64,000 bases of DNA from an uncultured Asticcacaulis sp. (GTDB lineage Bacteria > Pseudomonadota > Alphaproteobacteria > Caulobacterales > Caulobacteraceae), in assembly GCA_936940865.1 (NCBI GenBank), contig CAKZJB010000052.1, positions 1 through 64,000 on the forward strand, read 5' to 3'. The translations under genes were made by a program, and so were the position numbers. Within the stretch, counting starts at the first letter, position 1, and each line of letters starts with the position of its first letter. Shown piece after piece: positions 46,011 through 63,397 of this stretch. The notes under the pieces are model-generated. The model was not told where the DNA came from and searched no databases. It was given only the letters and a program-made list of their open reading frames with translations.

Positions 46011-46466
46011 ATGACTCAGACCACGCTTACGCTTGACGAGTACATGCCTTATCGCCTTGCTGTGGCTTCGAACGCAGTAAGCACCTTGATTGCGACGGCC
46101 TATGAAAGCCTTTACGGGCTGCGAATCCCGGAATGGCGGCTGATCACCATCCTGCGCGAGGACGGTCCTTCGACGCAACAGGCCCTGGTCAAGCGCGCCG
46201 GCATGGACAAGGTCACGATTTCGCGTGCCGCCCAGGCGCTGGCCAAGCGCCGCCTGATCACGCGCGCCCCGCACGAACATGACGGCCGTTCGCACCACCT
46301 GATTCTGACCGCGGAAGGCGAACGCCTGTTCGCCGACGTCGCTCCGGCGGCGATCGAGTACGAAAAGGTCATGCTGGCCGACTTCTCGCCCGAGGAACAG
46401 CTTCAGTTCAAGAAGCTGCTGCGCCGGGTCGAGGAAGCCGCCCTCAAGGCCCAGGGCAACCGCTGA
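46011..46466 (+). CDS. MarR family transcriptional regulator
   Basis: This 151-residue winged-helix regulator has the MarR pattern: helix-turn-helix around STQQALVKRAGMDKVTISRAA and a wing with HEHDGRSHHLILTAEG. The dimerisation helices are at both ends. MarR proteins repress stress or catabolic genes until a ligand, often a phenolic or lipid, binds. Neither adjacent operon is an obvious target; an autoregulatory palindrome lies upstream. Confidence 0.9.
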   Translation: MTQTTLTLDEYMPYRLAVASNAVSTLIATAYESLYGLRIPEWRLITILREDGPSTQQALVKRAGMDKVTISRAAQALAKRRLITRAPHEHDGRSHHLILTAEGERLFADVAPAAIEYEKVMLADFSPEEQLQFKKLLRRVEEAALKAQGNR

Positions 46467-46624: not shown

Positions 46625-47306
46625 ATGGACGACAAATACGACGCGCCCCCCGTGGCCGATTTCCCCACCGATGTCGGCGGCCACCACGATTTCCTGTTCT
46701 GGACGGCGGTGACGGTCTGCCTGATCGTTCTGGCGAGCATCCTCACCATCGTTTTCAAGAACGCCCAGCGCGACGCGTCGGGCGGGGTCGGCGGCGCCAT
46801 CGATCGCCGGATCGATGCCGTGAAGAAGCTGTTGTCGGCCGCCGCGAAGGCCGGCCCGGACGACCAGGTCGAAAAGGCGGAAAAGGCCCGCGCCGCCATT
46901 ACCGAGAATTTCCAGCATACCCTGAAGCTCAGCGCCGAACTGAACAAGGTGGTGGGCAAGCTGAACACCGCCATCGAAGGCACCCGGGAAGAGGTCTTCA
47001 AGCCCAAGGGAGCGGCCCCCGCCGCCATGGGTGGCACGGTCATCAATATCGCCGTCAACGCGTCCGAGGTCCAGCCGATGGCCGCCGTCGCGCCCGCCTG
47101 CCGATCCCGCGCCCGAAAAAGTGCCGATGAGCGCGGATGAAAAGAGCGAGGCCATCTGGAAGGCCGTGCAGAAGCTTTTCAATTACTGGAAGAACATGAG
47201 CGCCGTCGCCACGGCCTTCCGCGCCGCCCAGGCCCAGCTTATGGCGTCGCCGGCGTGGGAAGATCCGCGTGAAGAGGGCGCAGGCCCGGGCAAGTCGAGG
47301 AAGTGA
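46625..47306 (+). pseudogene. Membrane coiled-coil protein, frameshifted; paralogue of the next gene
   Basis: The frame at 46625 encodes one transmembrane helix (about residues 23-45) and a coiled-coil region. It then loses sense after NIAVNASEVQPMAAVAPA and stops at 47140. From about 47100 the +1 frame continues naturally (ADPAPEKVPMSADEKSEAIW, then KAVQKLFNYWKN) to 47306. Both parts align with the next gene, for example KVVGKLNTAIEGT with KIVGELDTALKGE, and FRAAQAQLMASP with IRAAQDELAAPP. One extra base near 47099-47101 explains the break. Decay, base-calling error or programmed frameshifting are all possible. Confidence 0.7.
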
Positions 47307-48076
47307 TGGCGCGTTCCGATCCCGGTTTTGACGATACGTTCGGCGGCGACGCCCCCGACCCGTCGGGCTATGGTCCCGGCCTGCATGTCGAGCCGCGCAT
47401 CCTGGTTACGCTGATCGTGCTCGGCCTGGCCATCCTGGCGGTCGGTGCCCTTGCCTACTATACCGGCCGGCAGCGCGGCCGCCGCCGGCTGGCCCGCCAG
47501 CGCGAGGCCTCGGCCGAAGCCATCTACAAGAGCGTGCGCTGGTATCTCGACCGGGCGCTGAAGTCGTCCGGCGCCGTAATTCTTGAGCGCGCGCGCGAGG
47601 TGGCCGAGGTCATCGAGGCGCGTCTGGGCTTCGTCATCGCGCTCAACGCCAAGCCGGGCAAGATCGTCGGCGAACTGGACACGGCCCTGAAGGGCGAAAA
47701 GCCGTCGGCCGCGCCCGATCCGACACCGAAGGTCAAGGTCGCCCTGGCTACCGAAGCCCACTATCTCGAAGTCTGGAAGGCGCTGCAGGGACTGAACAAG
47801 CTGTGGCAGGACAAGCCCGCCGTCATGGCCATGATTCGCGCCGCCCAGGACGAACTGGCCGCGCCCCCAAAGCCCGAGCGCGCTCCTGTCCGTCAGCCTG
47901 TGGAAAAGCCCCGGGCCGTCAAGGAAAAGGCGGCTAAGGCGCAGCCGGCGGTCAAGGCTGCCGCTCCGGCTCCGGCTCCGGCTCCCGCCCCCGCCCCCGC
48001 CCGCGCCGCCGCCGAACCGGGGCAAGAAGCTGCCGGCACACAAGCGCAACATGCTGGCCTGATTGCCGTAGCGTAA
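47306..48076 (+). CDS. Membrane coiled-coil protein of unknown function
   Basis: This 256-residue protein has one transmembrane helix (about residues 31-52), an Arg-rich cytosolic start to the following domain, helical segments, a WKALQGLNKLWQ block, and a Pro/Ala repeat tail (PAPAPAPAPAPA). It is a tandem paralogue of the preceding frameshifted gene, and its ATG overlaps that gene's stop (TGATG). No known family was recognised. In the last 20 codons another frame reads KKLPAHKRNML and stops at 48064, so a second indel in the GC-rich repeat cannot be excluded. Confidence 0.65.
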   Translation: MARSDPGFDDTFGGDAPDPSGYGPGLHVEPRILVTLIVLGLAILAVGALAYYTGRQRGRRRLARQREASAEAIYKSVRWYLDRALKSSGAVILERAREVAEVIEARLGFVIALNAKPGKIVGELDTALKGEKPSAAPDPTPKVKVALATEAHYLEVWKALQGLNKLWQDKPAVMAMIRAAQDELAAPPKPERAPVRQPVEKPRAVKEKAAKAQPAVKAAAPAPAPAPAPAPARAAAEPGQEAAGTQAQHAGLIAVA

Positions 48077-48253: not shown

Positions 48254-49465
48254 GTGTTTCGGAGCTGGCTGTCGAAAATCGCTGCGAACAGTCGCGGCAA
48301 TGTCGCCACGATCGTTGCCCTGAGCGCGGTACCGCTGTTGCTCAGCAGTGTCGCTGTGCTCGAAATCACCTCGATTTCCAATGATCACGCCAGGCTTCAG
48401 GCGGCGGCCGATGCCGGCGCCCTGGCCGGAGCCGGCCGGCTGTCCGTGGCCACCGGTGCGATCTCCGGGCCGTCCGATACCGCGGCGACGGTAACGAAAC
48501 AGACGGCGGCGCAATCGGGTATTGCGACGGCGGTGTCGGTCCAGGTCACGGTCGCCGCCGACAACAGCGCCGTCACGGTCGTTGCCACCACGATGCACCA
48601 GCCCATTGTCGACCTGCTGGGGGCGCGTACGGTCACGGCCACGGCCAAGGCCGAAAACATGGGCCATATTCCCTTGTGCATACTCCAGACGGGGACGGGC
48701 GGCATCAGGATGCAGAACCAGGCGCGCGTCCGCGCGACGGGCTGCGCCGTCCACGCCAATGACGACATCAAGGTCGATCCGGGCGCCATGATCCAGGCCG
48801 ACCGGACCGAGGCCGTGGGTACCATAAGCGGGCCGGTGTCTCCGGCCGGCTTTTCCGGCGCCATGACCATCGGCGACCCCTTTGCGTCGATGAACCTCAA
48901 TCCGCCGCTCGGCTGCGTCGGCAAGCCCCTGACCATTAAGGAACTGACCGGTCTGGTGCTTGCCCTGCCACCTGGCGTGCATTGCGAGCGCTATGAGGTC
49001 GAGAAGAACGCCACCCTGATCCTTTTGCCGGGCGAGCATTATTTCATGAATGATCTCAATGCCCATGAAAACGCAATCATTACAGGCGACGACGTCGTGC
49101 TCGTCTTCGGTTCCACCGAGAAGATCACCTTTGCCGACAAGGCGCAGGTGACGCTGGGCGCGCGCAGGAGCGGGCCGTTCGCCGGCTTTCTTCTGGTAAC
49201 GACGCGCGACAACACCCAGACCTTCGCCATCGCGTCAGACCACGTCAACAAGCTGCTCGGCACGATCTATATCCCGAACGCCACCCTGGCCGTCGAAACC
49301 TCGGGCAATGTCGCCCAGGACTCGGCCTGGAGCATCATCGTGGCCCAGAACCTGACGCTGAAACAGAACCCGAACCTGGTGATCAATACGGGCTATGTCG
49401 GCTCGGGCGTGCCCGTGCCGGACGGCGTCGGGCCCAACCGCAGCCAACCGGTCCTCGCGCAGTAG
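48254..49465 (+). CDS. Tad/Flp pilus-type membrane-anchored protein (TadG N-terminus)
   Basis: This 403-residue protein has the Tad-like N-terminus SRGNVATIVALSAVPLL with a single helix (about residues 18-38), followed by NDHARLQAAADAGALAGA. The remainder is beta-rich with turn repeats (VEKNATLILLPGEHYF; ENAIITGDDVVLVF) like a right-handed helix. It is therefore a secreted or surface protein with the anchor of pilus-assembly proteins, not a complete TadG: no von Willebrand domain is seen. The start is a GTG with AGAGGA upstream. No other tad genes are near. Confidence 0.75.
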   Translation: MFRSWLSKIAANSRGNVATIVALSAVPLLLSSVAVLEITSISNDHARLQAAADAGALAGAGRLSVATGAISGPSDTAATVTKQTAAQSGIATAVSVQVTVAADNSAVTVVATTMHQPIVDLLGARTVTATAKAENMGHIPLCILQTGTGGIRMQNQARVRATGCAVHANDDIKVDPGAMIQADRTEAVGTISGPVSPAGFSGAMTIGDPFASMNLNPPLGCVGKPLTIKELTGLVLALPPGVHCERYEVEKNATLILLPGEHYFMNDLNAHENAIITGDDVVLVFGSTEKITFADKAQVTLGARRSGPFAGFLLVTTRDNTQTFAIASDHVNKLLGTIYIPNATLAVETSGNVAQDSAWSIIVAQNLTLKQNPNLVINTGYVGSGVPVPDGVGPNRSQPVLAQ

Positions 49466-49488: not shown

Positions 49489-50139
49489 TCAGCGATCGCC
49501 GCTTCCCCTTTCCGGCAGCCATTTCGAGCAGGCGGCTATCCGGCTTTCGAGGTTTTGCAGCGCGGCCGGGCCGTATCGCCGGTCGATGTCGCGCAGCCGT
49601 TGGGCCGCGCATTCGAATTCGGCGTGCACTTCGTCGTCCGTTGCCGCGGCCCCCTTGCAGAACCACTCGACCTTATGCGGTTCGAATATCCTGAACAGCG
49701 GGCCATTTCCCGGATCGAACAATTCGCCGCCCCGGCCCCTGGTAATCCACGCGGAAGACAAGCCGGAATTGTGTTCGACAAGCTCCCCGCCGCCGGAATG
49801 GCTCGCCGGCAGGGCCGCCTTGCTCCGTTTCATGTGCGGGTTTGACAAAAACGGACAGTTCAGAAGCGCGACCCGCGCGCATTCGGGATGGGCGGGGGGC
49901 TCGCCCGTGCAGCGGTTTATCATGCTTACGGGGCCGACGATCCAGGCGCGGAAGGCAAAAAGCTGCTTTCCGCAAATCCAGCAGAGATCGCGGTTCCATC
50001 CTTCGATCAGTCTGCGGCCATCGACGACCCTGAAATCGGGCTTCCCGGAAAACCAGTCGACGAACCATGGTACAGGTATGCCGCGTTCGTCTGTTGGCAG
50101 CGCTCGCATCCCCGCAGGGAGCGGATCGAACCGATTCAT
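49489..50139 (-). CDS. Cysteine-rich hypothetical protein
   Basis: This 216-residue cytosolic protein has a CWICGKQL pair, the conserved-looking AWIVGPVSMINR segment, then EPPAHPECARVALLNCPFL. Together these suggest a small treble-clef metal site. Similar proteins occur in rhizobia, Caulobacter relatives and some phages; their function is unknown. The ATG at 50139 has AGGA seven bases ahead. It converges with the Tad-like gene and follows the hybrid kinase divergently by its flank only; no operon partner is seen. Confidence 0.7.
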   Translation of the reverse strand: MNRFDPLPAGMRALPTDERGIPVPWFVDWFSGKPDFRVVDGRRLIEGWNRDLCWICGKQLFAFRAWIVGPVSMINRCTGEPPAHPECARVALLNCPFLSNPHMKRSKAALPASHSGGGELVEHNSGLSSAWITRGRGGELFDPGNGPLFRIFEPHKVEWFCKGAAATDDEVHAEFECAAQRLRDIDRRYGPAALQNLESRIAACSKWLPERGSGDR

Positions 50140-50222
50140 GGTCATGTCCTGGAAAACACGGATAAGCTGCGCCAATCGATAGCGAAGTCAATATCCGGAT
50201 ATCTGTTTTTTGGGGGCGGATA

Positions 50223-53200
50223 TCAGGCCGCGGCCTGAACCATGTCCGACAGGTCGGACGCCGGGACCGGGCGGCCGAACAGATAGCCCTGCAGGGCGTG
50301 GACGCCGGCTGCCTTGAGGTGTTTGTGCTGGCTTTGGGTTTCGATGCCTTCGGCCACGACCTGCATGCCGAAGGCGCGGCCCAGACCCGTGACCGCCTGG
50401 ATAATCGCCAGGGCTTCCAGGGCCGGCTTGGGCTGGCCGTCCAGCGCCGTAACGAAGACCTTGTCGATCTTGACCTTGTCGAAGGCGAAGCGATGCAAGG
50501 CGGTAAGACTGGAATAGCCGGCGCCGAAGTCGTCCAGCGCCAGCTTGACGCCCATGGCATGAATGTCGTCGAACACCTGCGACACCCGTTCCGGGTCGTT
50601 CATGAAAGCGGTTTCGGTCATCTCAAGCACCAGCCGGCCGGGCGGATAGCCGGTCGACGACAGCAGGCGCCGCAGGTCCGACACGAAATTCGGATCTTCG
50701 AGCTCGATCGGCGAAACATTGACCGCCACGGGAATGGTCCAGTCGCGGGTTTCCGACAGCACGGTCCGGCGGACGAAGGCGCCGAGCTTTCCGATCAGGC
50801 CGTTGCGCTCGGCCAGCGGCACGAAGATGTCCGGGCCGACCGGGGGACGGCCGTCGCGGCGCCAGCGGACCAGGGCTTCGGCGGAAATGATCTGTTGGCC
50901 CGTGCGGTCGAAAATGGGCTGATAGACCATTTCGAAGGCGCCTGCATCGAGATCGGCGTCGAGTTCCGCCGCCAGGTCGTTTACCCGGGCAGGCTTCGCC
51001 GCCGCCGCGCCCGCGCCGGGCAGGGCCGCAAGCGTGCTTTGCAGAACGGCGTGAAGGCCGGCCAGGTCCGAGGCGGTGATCCTGCCGCCCGCATCACGGA
51101 TCGTATGTTCGATGGCCGCCGAGGCCTCGGCCACCGCCCTGGCGCCGAGATTGAGGCTCATCGATTTGAGGGCGTGGGCCGCGCGCGCCACGGCATCGCT
51201 GTCACCGGCCCCGTGCGCCGCCACCATGTTCGCCAGCGTTTCGGGGGCATGGCGGTGATAGAGGTCGATCACGCGGTCGAGGAAGGCGTCGGCGCGCGCG
51301 AACAGGGGACCGGTGATGTCGGCGTCGAAGAGCGCGCTTTCGACAGGCGCGGCCGTCGCCGCGGCCGGCGCCTCGACAGCCGGAGCGACGGGCGCCTGCG
51401 CCAGTCCCCCCGGCAGCCATGCTTTGAGGATCCGGCCGAGGTCGGCCAGGGTAAAGGGCTTGTGCAGGACATCGTCCATGCCGGCGTCGCGCCAGGCGTC
51501 CGCCGCCGAGCCCACCACGTGCGCGGTCAGGGCGACGACAGGCAGACGCAATGCGCCGGCTTCCGTCTGGCGCAGGCGGCGGGTCGCTTCGTAGCCGTCC
51601 ATAACCGGCATGGAGCCGTCCATCAGCACAAGGTCGAACGGCCGGCTGGCGATGACGGTCAGCGCGGCCCGGCCGTCATTGGCTGTTTCGCCGCGGATGC
51701 CGAAACGCAGCAGGGCTTCCAGGGCCACTTCGCGGTTGACTTCGCTGTCGTCGACCACCAGCACCCTGGCCTCGGGATAGGCTGCATCGATGGCGTCGCG
51801 TGTCGTTTCGCTGTCGCGGATGGCGAAGCCCGTGCCGTCGCGCATGGCAAGGATCAGGGCGTCGACGTCGCGGTGGCGCAGGGGGCGGGGCAGGGCGCAG
51901 GCTGCACGGCCAGCCGTCACCATGGCATCGCCTTCGCCGTCCTCCGGCTCGACCGCCAGCACGAGGGCCGAAGGAGGCACGCCCTGGCGGTGGGCCGCGT
52001 CGGCGATGACAAGGTCGGCGTCGCCATCGACGACGTCGATTCCGGCGGCGGCCAGCCGTCCGGCGACGGCTCGGCGTTCCAGAACCGCATCCATCCGTAC
52101 CGAGGCGGTGCCACGGCCCGCCCACGGCGGCGCGGCCGATGCCGCGCCGGCAAAAACGGGCAGGCGAACGTGGAACTGCGTGCCCCGGCCCGGTTCGCTG
52201 GTGACGGCGATGGCGCCGCCCATGGCTTCGGCCAGGCGCCTGGCGATCGACAGGCCAAGCCCCGTGCCGCCGAACCGGCGGGTCGTCGTCCGGTCCTCCT
52301 GCTCGAAGGCGCTGAATATCGATTTCAGCTTCGATTTCGCGATGCCGATGCCGGTATCCTCGATCACCAGCCGCCAGTAGCCGGGCTTGCTGTCGGCGGA
52401 AACATGGACGCAGACATAGCCGGTCTCGGTGAACTTCAGCGCGTTCGACACCAGGTTCGATACGACCTGACCCAGGCGCACCGGGTCGGCCGGCACGATG
52501 CGCGGGGCATCGGGATCGGCGAGCGCGATCAGTTCCAGGCCCTTTTCGCGCGCCTTGGCCTTGAACAGGGCCAGGGTGTCGTCGACCAGGTCGAGGATGT
52601 CGACCTCGCAGGTTTCGACCTCCAGCTTGCCGGCCTCGATCTTGGAAAAGTCGAGAACGTCATTGATCACGGCCAGCAGGTTGCGGCCCGAGCGCGCGAT
52701 CGTCGCCGCATGGCGCCGGGCCCTGGCGGGCAGGCTCTCGGCGGCCAGCAGTTCGGCCATGACCATGACGCCGTTCATCGGTGTGCGGATTTCGTGGCTC
52801 ATCGTCGCCAGGAAATCGGACTTGGCGCGATTGGCGGCCTGGGCTTCGTCACGCGCCGCCAGATAGTCGCGCGTGCGGGCGGCGACCTCGGCTTCCAGCC
52901 CTTTCAGGTGGGCGTCGATCTTGCGGTCGCGCTCGGCAATGGCGTCGAGCATGGCGTTGAAGCCGGTGACCAGCGTCCCGACCTCGTCCCGCGACCGGGT
53001 CGCGACGCGGCGGGAAAAGTCGCCCCCGGCGGCGATGGCTTCGACGGAACGGGTCAGGTCGGCCAATGGCGCCGTCATGCTGTATTGCATGCGCCGCGCC
53101 AACCACAGGGCGAAAGCCAGGGCTCCGCCGGCCAGCAAAAAGATGCCCGACACGGCCTGGACCAGGACAAGGCCGAAGCCTTGCGCGGTGTGGACGATGA

Positions 53201-53735
53201 CGACCTGCCCCAGGCGGTGGGCGCCTATGCGAATCGGCGCCACCACCCGGATGGTGCGGGTCAGCACCAGATCGCGGATGCCGGCACGCGGCGCGTCGGT
53301 ATAAAGTGTAAGGTCGTTGGCCAGCCGTGATCCGGCGCCTGTCTCGGCCAGCACCTGGCCCCGGGCGTCCTGGATACGGGCATAGGTGACGCCCGGCGTA
53401 TGCGTTACGGCGCGCAGTACGGCGAAGGCCTGCGCCGCATTGTCGTTTTGGGCGGCTTCGACGGCATTGCCGGCCAGAAGGTTGGCGACCGTGCTCATCG
53501 ACGCCCAGCGGGTTTCGGCCTGGCGCGAGGTTTCACGGACGATGAAGAGGGTGGCGACGGGAAGGGTGGACAACAGCACCGAGCCCAGCACCAGGCCGCT
53601 CAGACGGCGGCGGATGGAGGTTTTTGGCACCGCAGGCCGTTCTTCACGGTCATGGCGGTCATTTTGTACCTTTTTCGCCATGGAGACTCGCGGTTGGCGC
53701 GCATTGGACAGGGGCTCACCATTGCTAATAATCAC
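50223..53735 (-). CDS. Hybrid sensor kinase with receiver, HPt and EAL domains
   Basis: This 1170-residue inner-membrane protein has two helices (about 45-65 and 188-212) around a periplasmic sensor and a HAMP domain (about 213-265). The HisKA has His314 in SHEIRTPMNG, and the HATPase has DTGIGI and GGTGLGLSIA. A degenerate receiver-like stretch (545-640), a receiver with Asp706, an HPt with His854 and a C-terminal EAL domain (930-1160) follow. The EAL set E953, N1006, E1041, D1068/D1069, K1089 and E1129 is present, so c-di-GMP hydrolysis is expected. A full phosphorelay and its output are thus on one chain. The start may be the GTG at 53735 or the ATG at 53681. Confidence 0.9.
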   Translation of the reverse strand: MIISNGEPLSNARQPRVSMAKKVQNDRHDREERPAVPKTSIRRRLSGLVLGSVLLSTLPVATLFIVRETSRQAETRWASMSTVANLLAGNAVEAAQNDNAAQAFAVLRAVTHTPGVTYARIQDARGQVLAETGAGSRLANDLTLYTDAPRAGIRDLVLTRTIRVVAPIRIGAHRLGQVVIVHTAQGFGLVLVQAVSGIFLLAGGALAFALWLARRMQYSMTAPLADLTRSVEAIAAGGDFSRRVATRSRDEVGTLVTGFNAMLDAIAERDRKIDAHLKGLEAEVAARTRDYLAARDEAQAANRAKSDFLATMSHEIRTPMNGVMVMAELLAAESLPARARRHAATIARSGRNLLAVINDVLDFSKIEAGKLEVETCEVDILDLVDDTLALFKAKAREKGLELIALADPDAPRIVPADPVRLGQVVSNLVSNALKFTETGYVCVHVSADSKPGYWRLVIEDTGIGIAKSKLKSIFSAFEQEDRTTTRRFGGTGLGLSIARRLAEAMGGAIAVTSEPGRGTQFHVRLPVFAGAASAAPPWAGRGTASVRMDAVLERRAVAGRLAAAGIDVVDGDADLVIADAAHRQGVPPSALVLAVEPEDGEGDAMVTAGRAACALPRPLRHRDVDALILAMRDGTGFAIRDSETTRDAIDAAYPEARVLVVDDSEVNREVALEALLRFGIRGETANDGRAALTVIASRPFDLVLMDGSMPVMDGYEATRRLRQTEAGALRLPVVALTAHVVGSAADAWRDAGMDDVLHKPFTLADLGRILKAWLPGGLAQAPVAPAVEAPAAATAAPVESALFDADITGPLFARADAFLDRVIDLYHRHAPETLANMVAAHGAGDSDAVARAAHALKSMSLNLGARAVAEASAAIEHTIRDAGGRITASDLAGLHAVLQSTLAALPGAGAAAAKPARVNDLAAELDADLDAGAFEMVYQPIFDRTGQQIISAEALVRWRRDGRPPVGPDIFVPLAERNGLIGKLGAFVRRTVLSETRDWTIPVAVNVSPIELEDPNFVSDLRRLLSSTGYPPGRLVLEMTETAFMNDPERVSQVFDDIHAMGVKLALDDFGAGYSSLTALHRFAFDKVKIDKVFVTALDGQPKPALEALAIIQAVTGLGRAFGMQVVAEGIETQSQHKHLKAAGVHALQGYLFGRPVPASDLSDMVQAAA

Positions 53736-53830
53736 ATGTTAAAAACTTCCTGCTAAACCGTTCGATGGGGCGAAAACGAGAAAGTCCGGAGGATGATCCT
53801 CCGCCGCGTACAGGGAGCTGTTCGGACACC

Positions 53831-54442
53831 ATGCCGAAGGACCATTTCGTCCATTTCGAAAACGCCCGTTTGCTGGTGGTGGACGACGACCCGATCCTGC
53901 GTGAGTTCGCGGCCGCCAACCTGGCGACGCCCAAGGTCGAGGTCGAGGTCGCCGGCGACGGCGATGAAGCCTGGCACCGCCTGTCCAGGGGGGACTTCGA
54001 TATCGCGCTGATCGACCTGGAAATGCCGGTCATGGACGGTTTCGAACTGATCGGCCTGATCCGCGCCGACGAACGGCTGAAGCACCTGCCGCTGGTCATC
54101 GCCACCGGCCGCGAGGACATGGACGCCGTCGACCGCGCCTATGCGGCCGGCGCCACCTCTTTCGTCGTCAAGCCGCTCAACTGGCGCCTCGTGTCGCATC
54201 AGCTGTCCTACGTGCTCCGCGCCAGTCGCGACGAGGCGTTTACGCGCAAGACGCTGCATGCGCTGCGCCGCAGGGTCGCGGCCCAGGACGAAATTCTGTC
54301 GACGGCCGAGGCGCGGCTCCAGCGCCTGGCGGCGTTGCCGGTAGCCGCGGGTCAGCCGTCCGGGGGCGACGATGGACACTTGCGCGCCGACATCGAGCGC
54401 CTGTGCAACGACCTGGCCCGGGCCCGCAGGCTGATCGGCTGA
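53831..54442 (+). CDS. Response regulator with helical C-terminal tail
   Basis: This 203-residue protein has a complete receiver: acidic pair in VVDDDP, phospho-acceptor Asp62 (LIDLEMPVMDG), Thr92 and Lys114 (VVKPLNW). It has no DNA-binding domain; the C-terminal 70 residues are helical and may mediate partner contact. It is divergent from the kinase-EAL gene, 95 bases apart, and is a likely partner of its HPt domain. The ATG at 53831 gives the best N-terminus; the upstream extension is not conserved-looking. Confidence 0.87.
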   Translation: MPKDHFVHFENARLLVVDDDPILREFAAANLATPKVEVEVAGDGDEAWHRLSRGDFDIALIDLEMPVMDGFELIGLIRADERLKHLPLVIATGREDMDAVDRAYAAGATSFVVKPLNWRLVSHQLSYVLRASRDEAFTRKTLHALRRRVAAQDEILSTAEARLQRLAALPVAAGQPSGGDDGHLRADIERLCNDLARARRLIG

Positions 54443-61824: not shown

Positions 61825-61954
61825 AAGTATTATAAAACAACGGCCTTCAGGCTTAGAGATGGATTAAGGATGTCGTGGTAATCGGTTTCATCGGGCAGCT
61901 CCCGCGGGATGCGTACCGATCCTTTTCCTCGTGCGAAAAATCGTCAGGCCGGTG

Positions 61955-63397
61955 ATGAGATTGCTGTTCAGAAAGTACGTATCCGACAGGCGCGGCAACA
62001 CGGCCATGGTGTTCGCCCTGTGCCTGTTGGCTTTGCTGAGCGCGGTCGCCGGCGCCATCGATTTCTCGCAACTGCTGTGGCAGAAGCGCCAGGCCCAGGA
62101 CGCGCTCGACGAAGCCGCGCTGGCCGTCGCCATTTCGTCCACGACCGATACGAATACGCAGAAGGCCATCGCCCAGACGGTCTTCAAGCAGAATGTCGAT
62201 GCCAAGAAGGTCAATGCCACCATTTCGGCGATGAATTTCAACTCCACGGCGCGCACCTTCGCGATGACGGCCAACGGCACCTATCAGCCCTACCTGCTGC
62301 AACTGGTCGGCATCACCTCCATGCCTTATACGGTCAACAGCAGCACCATCAAGGCCGCCGACGGAACGCTTGAAGTCGCCCTGGTGCTCGACAACACCTG
62401 GTCGATGAGCGAAAGCCTCGACGGCTCCCAGACGAAGATCCAGGTGCTCCAGACCGCGGCGAAGTCGCTGGTGTCGTCCGTGATGACGACCGCCAACAAG
62501 AGCTACGTCAAGATGGCCATCGTGCCCTATGCCAATTACGTCAATGTCGGCACGGGCAACCGCTACCAGAGCTGGATGTCCGTTCCCGCCGACTATTCGA
62601 CGACCTCGGCAAAGACCTGCACCACCGTCTCCACCAAGACGACCTGCACCGGCGGCACCAAGGGAACCTGCACGGGCAGCCAGGACGGCGTACCGTATAC
62701 CTATAGCTGCTGGATCGTGGCCCAGACCTGCACCACCGTGGCCGTGACGCCTTACCAGAGCTGCTCGGGCGGCACGACGACGAACTACAAGTGGTTCGGC
62801 TGCGTCTATAACCAGATGTCGTCGGGCAAGCTGGTCATGCCCGACCCCACGACGGCCTATACCGGCATCATGCAGACCAGCCAGGGATGCCTCAATCCCA
62901 TCGTCCCGCTGACCAACGACAGCACCACGGTTACCAACGCCATCGGCGGCCTGGTGGTCAATATCGGCAGCTACAAGCCGGAAACCTATATTCCGGGCGG
63001 CCTGATCTGGGGCGTCAACGTCCTGTCACCGCCGGCGCCGTTCTCGGAAGGCGCCGCCTACGACAGCAAGAACAAGCAGCCGCGCAAGGCCATCGTGCTG
63101 ATGACGGACGGCGCCAATACCCAGTACTCGACCTCGTCCGGCAGCGTGTCGACGGCCAGCGCCACCCAGCTGGCGACCACCTATTCGGACCAGAAGAAGG
63201 TCTGCGACTACGCCAAGGCGAAGAATATCGAAATCTACGCCATCGGCTTCGGCGTCAGCGACGCGACCTCGCTCGGCGCGCTGAAATACTGCGCGACCGA
63301 CGCTTCGCACTATTTCGACGCCAAGAGCTCGGCCGACCTTATCGCCGCCTTCAAGACCATCGGCGGGCAGCTGACCAAGGTGCGGATTACGGGCTGA
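61955..63397 (+). CDS. TadG-like pilus assembly protein with VWA domain
   Basis: This 480-residue protein starts with a Tad anchor helix (RRGNTAMVFALCLLALLSAV) and QAQDALDEAALAVA. A von Willebrand factor A domain follows, with the metal-site motif DNTWS (VLDNTWSMS) and a second motif in LMTDGAN. A cysteine-rich insert with repeated TCTT/TCTG motifs (around residues 220-290) lies inside the VWA domain. Such proteins are membrane-anchored and exposed to the outside. The ATG at 61955 has a weak AGG ahead; a GTG at 61931 lacks one. No other tad genes are in the window. Confidence 0.85.
   Translation: MRLLFRKYVSDRRGNTAMVFALCLLALLSAVAGAIDFSQLLWQKRQAQDALDEAALAVAISSTTDTNTQKAIAQTVFKQNVDAKKVNATISAMNFNSTARTFAMTANGTYQPYLLQLVGITSMPYTVNSSTIKAADGTLEVALVLDNTWSMSESLDGSQTKIQVLQTAAKSLVSSVMTTANKSYVKMAIVPYANYVNVGTGNRYQSWMSVPADYSTTSAKTCTTVSTKTTCTGGTKGTCTGSQDGVPYTYSCWIVAQTCTTVAVTPYQSCSGGTTTNYKWFGCVYNQMSSGKLVMPDPTTAYTGIMQTSQGCLNPIVPLTNDSTTVTNAIGGLVVNIGSYKPETYIPGGLIWGVNVLSPPAPFSEGAAYDSKNKQPRKAIVLMTDGANTQYSTSSGSVSTASATQLATTYSDQKKVCDYAKAKNIEIYAIGFGVSDATSLGALKYCATDASHYFDAKSSADLIAAFKTIGGQLTKVRITG

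Follow-up and report, generated by a model that had tools for sequence, protein, structure and literature searches.

A hybrid histidine kinase with its own c-di-GMP phosphodiesterase domain in Asticcacaulis, and its divergently encoded receiver partner that looks like a pared-down receiver-kinase

A 64,000-nucleotide stretch of the genome of an uncultured Asticcacaulis sp. (positions 1 to 64,000 of contig CAKZJB010000052.1, assembly GCA_936940865.1; the whole stretch is called the window below) encodes a protein in which a complete phosphorelay ends in an EAL domain, the phosphodiesterase domain for cyclic di-GMP (c-di-GMP), and next to it a small separate receiver protein. This locus raises the question of how the EAL domain is controlled and what role is left for the neighbouring receiver. 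Two open reading frames (ORFs) were confirmed in the window: gene A at 50223–53735 on the minus strand (1170 amino acids (aa) from a GTG), and the divergent gene B at 53765–54442 on the plus strand (225 aa). Comparison of the sequences with those of related loci suggests that the state of the relay would set the activity of the EAL domain and that B would accept or drain the phosphate of the HPt domain of A, a reading given an even chance of being correct. B itself looks like a pared-down receiver-kinase, whose kinase half would have been lost only where A carries the EAL domain.

The domain order of A that an earlier note had read from the letters of this DNA, from the sensor to the EAL, was borne out by a Pfam domain search and by alignment to the solved hybrid kinase 6qrj. 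HAMP (residues 219–266, 52938–53081), HisKA with His314 (residues 304–369, 52629–52826), HATPase_c (residues 417–527, 52155–52487), Response_reg with Asp706 (residues 658–767, 51435–51764), Hpt with His854 (residues 823–900, 51036–51269) and EAL (residues 924–1156, 50268–50966), all on the minus strand, each scored above the curated cut-off. The periplasmic sensor (residues 79–180, 53196–53501, minus strand) was weakly recognizable as CHASE8-like: both sCache_3_2 and CHASE8 stayed below cut-off in the window protein, and CHASE8 was found at E 0.01 or better in all 11 homologous A N-termini scanned. The degenerate receiver that the note had proposed was not called by Pfam, but is supported by the continuous alignment of A residues 308–774 to 6qrj across the kinase, a pseudo-receiver and the receiver, which places the pseudo-receiver between HATPase and receiver at residues ~545–632 (51840–52103, minus strand). 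The phosphorelay residues were all present (His314, Asp662, Asp663, Asp706, Thr737, Lys759 and His854), which makes A an unorthodox hybrid kinase with HAMP, HisKA, HATPase, receiver and HPt in one chain. The claim of an intact EAL domain also held, since the residues counted as catalytic in this domain were found: Glu953, Arg957, Asn1006, Glu1038, Asp1068, Asp1069, Lys1089, Glu1129 and Gln1149.

A is not a chance ORF, since 15 further species of its genus have orthologues with 54–62% identity. In G018 (L146) a frameshift close to the HPt-EAL linker divides the gene, with two single-base differences from its sister, which may be real or an assembly error; in G023 (L148) A is broken. The starts of both genes as called are likely too long, and the true ones are likely Met19 for A (53681) and Met23 for B (53831), judging from where homologues start, from a promoter-like site and from the low confidence of the structure model. 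The B receiver begins 9–14 residues in for 12 of the 13 other genus genomes with a scored B, compared to 34 in the window (in the 13th, G018, it begins at 195 because of an over-long ORF), and most of the first 28 residues of B had a predicted local distance difference test (pLDDT) value below 50 in the predicted structure. The promoter-like site in the divergent gap (TGGACA-16-AATAAT, 53705–53732, plus strand), a consensus match of which 1 was found vs 0.3 expected, overlaps the first 18 codons of A as called.

The fusion itself, taken in the earlier note to be uncommon, is common in this order and ordinary as such. In a sample of 398 genomes of the order, 84 matched A at E 1e-90 or better, in the window's genus 17 of the 25 genomes did, and a class-wide draw of 385 genomes gave three matches at E 1e-100: the window's own genome, one of its family and G611, which belongs to another order and lacks the EAL. 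Of the 99 genomes in which a match qualified, loci were fetched for 80 (19 were not taken), Caulobacter ginsengisoli and a Hyphomicrobiaceae metagenome-assembled genome were added, and, after dropping L148 (the broken A of G023) and L213 (a duplicate of G192), 81 A genes were scored. The EAL was carried by 45 of them (in one case a frameshift has put it into an ORF of its own), and the remaining 36 stopped at HPt. The EAL-bearing A proteins formed a single clade in the A tree (Shimodaira-Hasegawa-like approximate likelihood ratio test 96). The host genome (5.07 Mb in 245 contigs) had 15 GGDEF and 14 EAL matches, and searches of plasmids gave no relative with 80% coverage. A 2022 census found the EAL proteins of Caulobacterales most often joined to histidine kinase and phosphotransfer domains (PMC9756655), very likely the same fusion class; in its available part it is a domain count, in which neither partner genes nor the history of the lineages nor a mechanism are described. 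Of the many characterized relatives which the note had considered possible, the relatives proved numerous, but no functional study of such a fused protein was found in the open-licence literature. As far as searched, the history of the partner B and the neighbourhood of the module are new. The fused A of three f2g14 genomes (L159, L160 and L187) nests among those of f1g3, with B downstream on the same strand; on sequence grounds, horizontal transfer is likely here.

Conservation was high both in the relay and in the EAL domain. The HPt histidine (His854) was kept in 81 of 81 A proteins, the kinase histidine (His314) in 79 (replaced by Arg in G022 and Asp in G034) and the receiver Asp706 also in 79 (replaced by Gly in G050 and deleted with the whole receiver in G034). 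Among the 44 unsplit fused proteins E953, N1006, E1038, D1068, D1069, K1089, E1129 and Q1149 were invariant, R957 was kept in 41, and the relay residues were intact in 41.

The partnership with B is conserved as well. A B-type receiver or a receiver-EAL protein was present near A in 75 of the 81 loci, which agrees with the earlier proposal of a neighbouring receiver with a helical tail as a plausible client of the HPt, and B lay on the strand opposite to A in 62 of 65 loci. The receiver of B (Pfam Response_reg at residues 37–139) has its phospho-acceptor at Asp84, and this Asp together with the Lys was kept in 66 of 66 B receivers, including those without the kinase half (the B of G023 is among the 66, despite its broken A being dropped). 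The nature of the partner depended on what A carried. In all 36 unfused loci it had an output of its own (26 receiver-kinases and 10 receiver-EAL proteins), and the 45 fused loci included 10 with a receiver-kinase, 29 with a receiver and tail only and 6 with no partner at the locus, so that a kinase-less partner was found in 29 of the 39 partners of fused A vs none of the 36 of unfused A. Since the f3 receiver-kinases stand inside the fused clade of the A tree, B would have shed its kinase half on two or more occasions since the fusion arose, if the loss is irreversible. The receiver-kinase partner in relatives and the receiver-EAL or receiver-kinase proteins beside unfused A were absent from the earlier note. 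In eight of nine loci of f1g3 (Brevundimonas-like, a name inferred), L158 and L180–L186, a second receiver ORF is present downstream of A.

The retention of B might also mean that B is the true output of the system, with its tail binding some target and with the EAL as a side activity or as a c-di-GMP receptor that modulates the kinase. The invariant Asp and Lys of its receiver and the presence of B-type genes without A elsewhere in the genus speak for it. Against it stand the catalytic EAL residues, intact in 44 of 44, in contrast to degenerate EAL receptors, and the tail, of which several lineages keep little or almost nothing: the B of f1g3 has little beyond the receiver, with 22–33 tail residues, and in three g1 genomes the tail has 43. 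On balance this explanation is improbable. The B-type receivers away from A were found at G000:C189 (L231), G003:C9 (L232), G003:C1 (L233), G007:C2 (L234) and G024:C6 (L235); the one at L232 has a 959-aa hybrid kinase on one side and a further TadG-like gene on the other.

What the tail of B is can be read from its relatives. In the window neither HisKA nor HATPase follows the receiver, and the tail (residues 140–225, 54182–54439, plus strand) is predicted to form two helices at 140–190 and 204–224; VIA-align of the B model gave receivers among the 50 matches listed, in which the tail was barely covered. A profile of 11 tails from the window's genus, made without three 43-residue ones (G007, G008 and G010), matched the HisKA region of ten f3 receiver-kinases (hhalign 99.0, E 7.8e-18, 94 columns) above the f5 receiver-kinases (88.1), the HisKA of A (55.8) and HPt (0.3). 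The first 30 residues belong to the last helix of the receiver and were therefore cut off, and the match to the f3 receiver-kinases persisted (hhalign 95.2, E 2.7e-8, 63 columns). In the best-kept genus tail the phospho-acceptor histidine is replaced (RHEFNTP against RQKITGP). By these profile matches to the f3 receiver-kinases, also after the cut, the genus tail is a remnant of HisKA. The tail of the window's B, which alone matched its own genus tails over 16 columns (hhalign 51.6), is read, from its orthology and the two-helix model, as a more decayed remnant of the HisKA helix pair without the phospho-acceptor histidine and without the ATPase domain.

That c-di-GMP breakdown may be the output of the relay is suggested by a second arrangement of the same parts. 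In ten f2 loci, which belong to another family, an A without EAL is placed beside a TadG-like gene and a separate receiver-EAL protein (two of the ten were confirmed by Pfam). Two different layouts thus connect this relay with an EAL output, whatever the origin of the EALs, and this is the best indirect evidence for such a role. In the maximum-likelihood tree of EAL domains the fused (99/96) and the separate f2 proteins (100/99) each formed one clade, apart from each other, and their independent recruitment is likely; a common origin, considered as the other possibility, was not rejected by the approximately unbiased test (p 0.122).

Two of the closest known systems are in Pseudomonas aeruginosa. 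In Roc, the unorthodox kinases RocS1 and RocS2 signal to the EAL protein RocR and govern surface fimbriae (PMC12051241); in strain PA14 the relay kinases PvrS and RcsC act with RcsB and the EAL response regulator PvrR, which opposes fimbriae (PMC3842833). The layout of Roc resembles A in that an unorthodox kinase with HisKA, HATPase, receiver and Hpt signals to an EAL phosphodiesterase, and its separate receiver-EAL protein is similar to that of the f2 relatives. In contrast to RocR, the EAL of the window follows directly behind the HPt with no receiver between them, and, unlike Roc, the partner B has no DNA-binding domain. Pvr differs from A in consisting of separate proteins and in that PvrR was found to be independent of its phospho-Asp. 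An EAL on a response regulator with its own receiver was found only in the ten f2 relatives and not in the window; A was therefore classed with neither Roc nor Pvr, and its way of working may resemble that of a Roc-type relay acting on a phosphodiesterase. The Caulobacter hybrid kinase HmrA was also considered; the word EAL is absent from the available main text of PMC11481889.

Some loci have lost parts of the module. Six fused loci had no partner (G016, G022, G034, G050, G001 and G268). B was truly absent in G016, G022 and G034, the loci of G050 and G001 were cut by contig ends, and in G268 B was present on another contig; searches of the genomes G016, G022, G034 and G050 turned up nothing more B-like than generic receivers. 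B and the TadG-like gene are absent together from G016 and G022, and the two genes located beyond them in G021 adjoin A (in G022 these are 66 and 79% identical to those of G021). The reverse is seen in G024, where B still stands beside the same two flanking genes and both A and TadG are gone (L235). The relay has decayed in three of these genomes: G022 is without the kinase histidine, G034 without the kinase histidine and the receiver, and G050 without the receiver active site, and all the checked EAL residues remained intact in the three. The A relative of G034 (L149, 1566–4259) is an 898-aa protein with the order HAMP-HisKA-HATPase-HPt-EAL, in which the HPt histidine is kept. With the relay decayed and the EAL left intact in genomes without B, it seems that B is what the relay serves, and that the EAL can be of use without the relay.

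The mechanism favoured here would run as follows. A would be an unorthodox hybrid kinase of the BarA/GacS type to which a c-di-GMP phosphodiesterase was added, so that it carries its output in the same chain; BarA and GacS themselves are not known to have an EAL. The periplasmic CHASE8-like domain would set the balance between kinase and phosphatase, the phosphate would pass from His314 to Asp706 and on to His854, residues which are all in place, and the end state of the receiver and HPt would set the activity of the tethered EAL. B would be an ancestral receiver-kinase that kept its receiver and lost its kinase half in the lineages with the EAL on A, and its Asp84 would take the phosphate from His854 and act as a drain, a reset or a docking switch. 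The module would lower c-di-GMP on an envelope signal, perhaps in connection with the adjacent TadG-like surface protein and with attachment. The conservation of the relay and EAL residues, the conserved partnership of A and B and the loss series are in support. A more specific form, in which the HPt is the regulatory domain of the EAL, phospho-His854 or docking of B switches the phosphodiesterase with no response regulator between, and B is a kinase pared to a phosphate drain after the output moved to A, is tentative and judged from the sequences to have the smaller chance.

Several observations weigh against the relay gating the EAL through the HPt and B, and some of them favour another explanation, that the EAL is a tethered, essentially constitutive phosphodiesterase, which the kinase half merely localizes and which is not gated by phosphate, the kinase half signalling through B. 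The HPt-EAL linker is conserved neither in length (16 to 70 residues) nor in sequence (0 of 19 columns at 90%), which argues against a rigid mechanical link, the EAL residues stayed intact despite the relay loss in G022, G034 and G050, and PvrR, a receiver-EAL protein, worked without its phospho-Asp (PMC3842833). This constitutive EAL is in turn disfavoured by the relay residues kept in nearly all unsplit fused members, by the separate f2 version, where an EAL with its own receiver suggests regulation, and by the restriction of the relay decay to genomes without B, and it is rather unlikely. The last point has limits of its own: relay loss in 3 of 4 B-less A proteins vs 0 of 77 others (Fisher p 4.7e-5, or 1.2e-4 if G001, where the contig stops within the TadG-like gene, is counted as B-less) was noticed post hoc, represents about three independent lineages, and has among its 77 others the ten f2 loci, from genomes that the search for B did not cover. 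His854 was retained even in G034 and G050, with missing or dead receivers of their own. B is not exclusive to A, as the B without A in G024 and the paralogues elsewhere show. As for the tail, the cut genus profile had no match to the f5 receiver-kinases (6.7), the HisKA of A (1.1) or HPt (0.3), and the tail of the window's B alone gave 0.1 with the f3 receiver-kinases and no match to HPt, so that its recognition as HisKA by its own sequence is unsupported.

The kinase-pseudo-receiver-receiver order of A is shared with ShkA and with BarA/GacS (PMC7010744). NCBIfam models placed A far below the cut-offs of both BarA (equivalog NF008318, 351.3 vs 890 bits) and TorS (383.1 vs 676.5). The 6qrj chain was identified as ShkA by its P321, R324, D325 and Y338 and the DDR motif, as described in PMC7010744, found on the chain with a constant offset of 12. 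ShkA binds c-di-GMP through the pseudo-receiver located between HATPase and receiver (PMC7010744), and A is alignable to it through all three domains, which might point to a closed loop, in which the pseudo-receiver of A senses c-di-GMP as in ShkA and high c-di-GMP activates the kinase and in turn the EAL. The residues known for this in ShkA are not conserved: the A column 614, corresponding to Tyr338, has Tyr in 0 of 81 A proteins, and the DDR linker motif is present in 1 of 81. Moreover, no other domain in the comparison was as poorly conserved as the pseudo-receiver, with 3 of its 88 columns at 90%, and its would-be active-site columns 579 and 617 vary. ShkA-type sensing through the known residues is unsupported on these grounds, and the loop is highly improbable.

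On the far side of A, a third gene (48254–49465, plus strand), also absent from the earlier note, encodes a 403-aa TadG-like protein with a PF13400 N-terminal helix (32.8 bits vs the cut-off of 22.3) and a predicted C-terminal beta-solenoid. Such a protein was found near A in 50 of 81 loci with a median gap of 506 bp. It was ruled out as an obligate partner: of the 26 unfused loci with a receiver-kinase 22 have none nearby, and of the 45 fused loci 9 (some of them cut by contig ends). Among ten genomes searched for TadG-like genes elsewhere, good matches were present in G046 (3) and G230 (1) and weak ones in G192, G137 and G022, and none at E 1e-8 in G016, G034, G050, G170 and G040. The structure was modelled from 5 sequences, and its five versions differed (mean pLDDT 60–79), with a long N-terminal helix and a beta-solenoid predicted. 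Foldseek gave nothing below 1e-3 (best E 2.4e-3), and VIA-align of this five-sequence model listed ice-binding proteins (Z 14.3, root mean square deviation (rmsd) 3.1, 185 aligned) and the pilin ComZ (Z 12.4, rmsd 3.4, 203 aligned). By analogy with the control of fimbriae by Roc and Pvr, it is possible that the TadG-like protein is a surface target or companion of the module.

The ORF between A and the TadG-like gene (49489–50175, minus strand, 228 aa) had no Pfam match and no homologue except itself among the ORFs of the loci compared. Of the neighbouring ORFs scanned, 46625–47140 and 47303–48076 had no Pfam match and 46011–46466 matched MarR; no search was aimed at tad/cpa genes. A second TadG-like ORF is located in the window at 61931–63394 (plus strand), with PF13400 at 61994–62131, and beyond the window end the same contig continues with a hybrid kinase ORF, after which comes one that combines receiver, GGDEF and EAL domains.

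If the HPt phosphate or its drain B gates the EAL, a single chain would lead from a signal at the envelope to the breakdown of c-di-GMP. The relatives form a natural series (unfused A with a receiver-kinase, unfused with a receiver-EAL protein, fused with a receiver-kinase, fused with a pared receiver, and fused alone), which lets the logic of output swapping be examined domain by domain. If the reading of B is true, small receivers with a helical tail would obtain a concrete origin, as kinases without their catalytic half.

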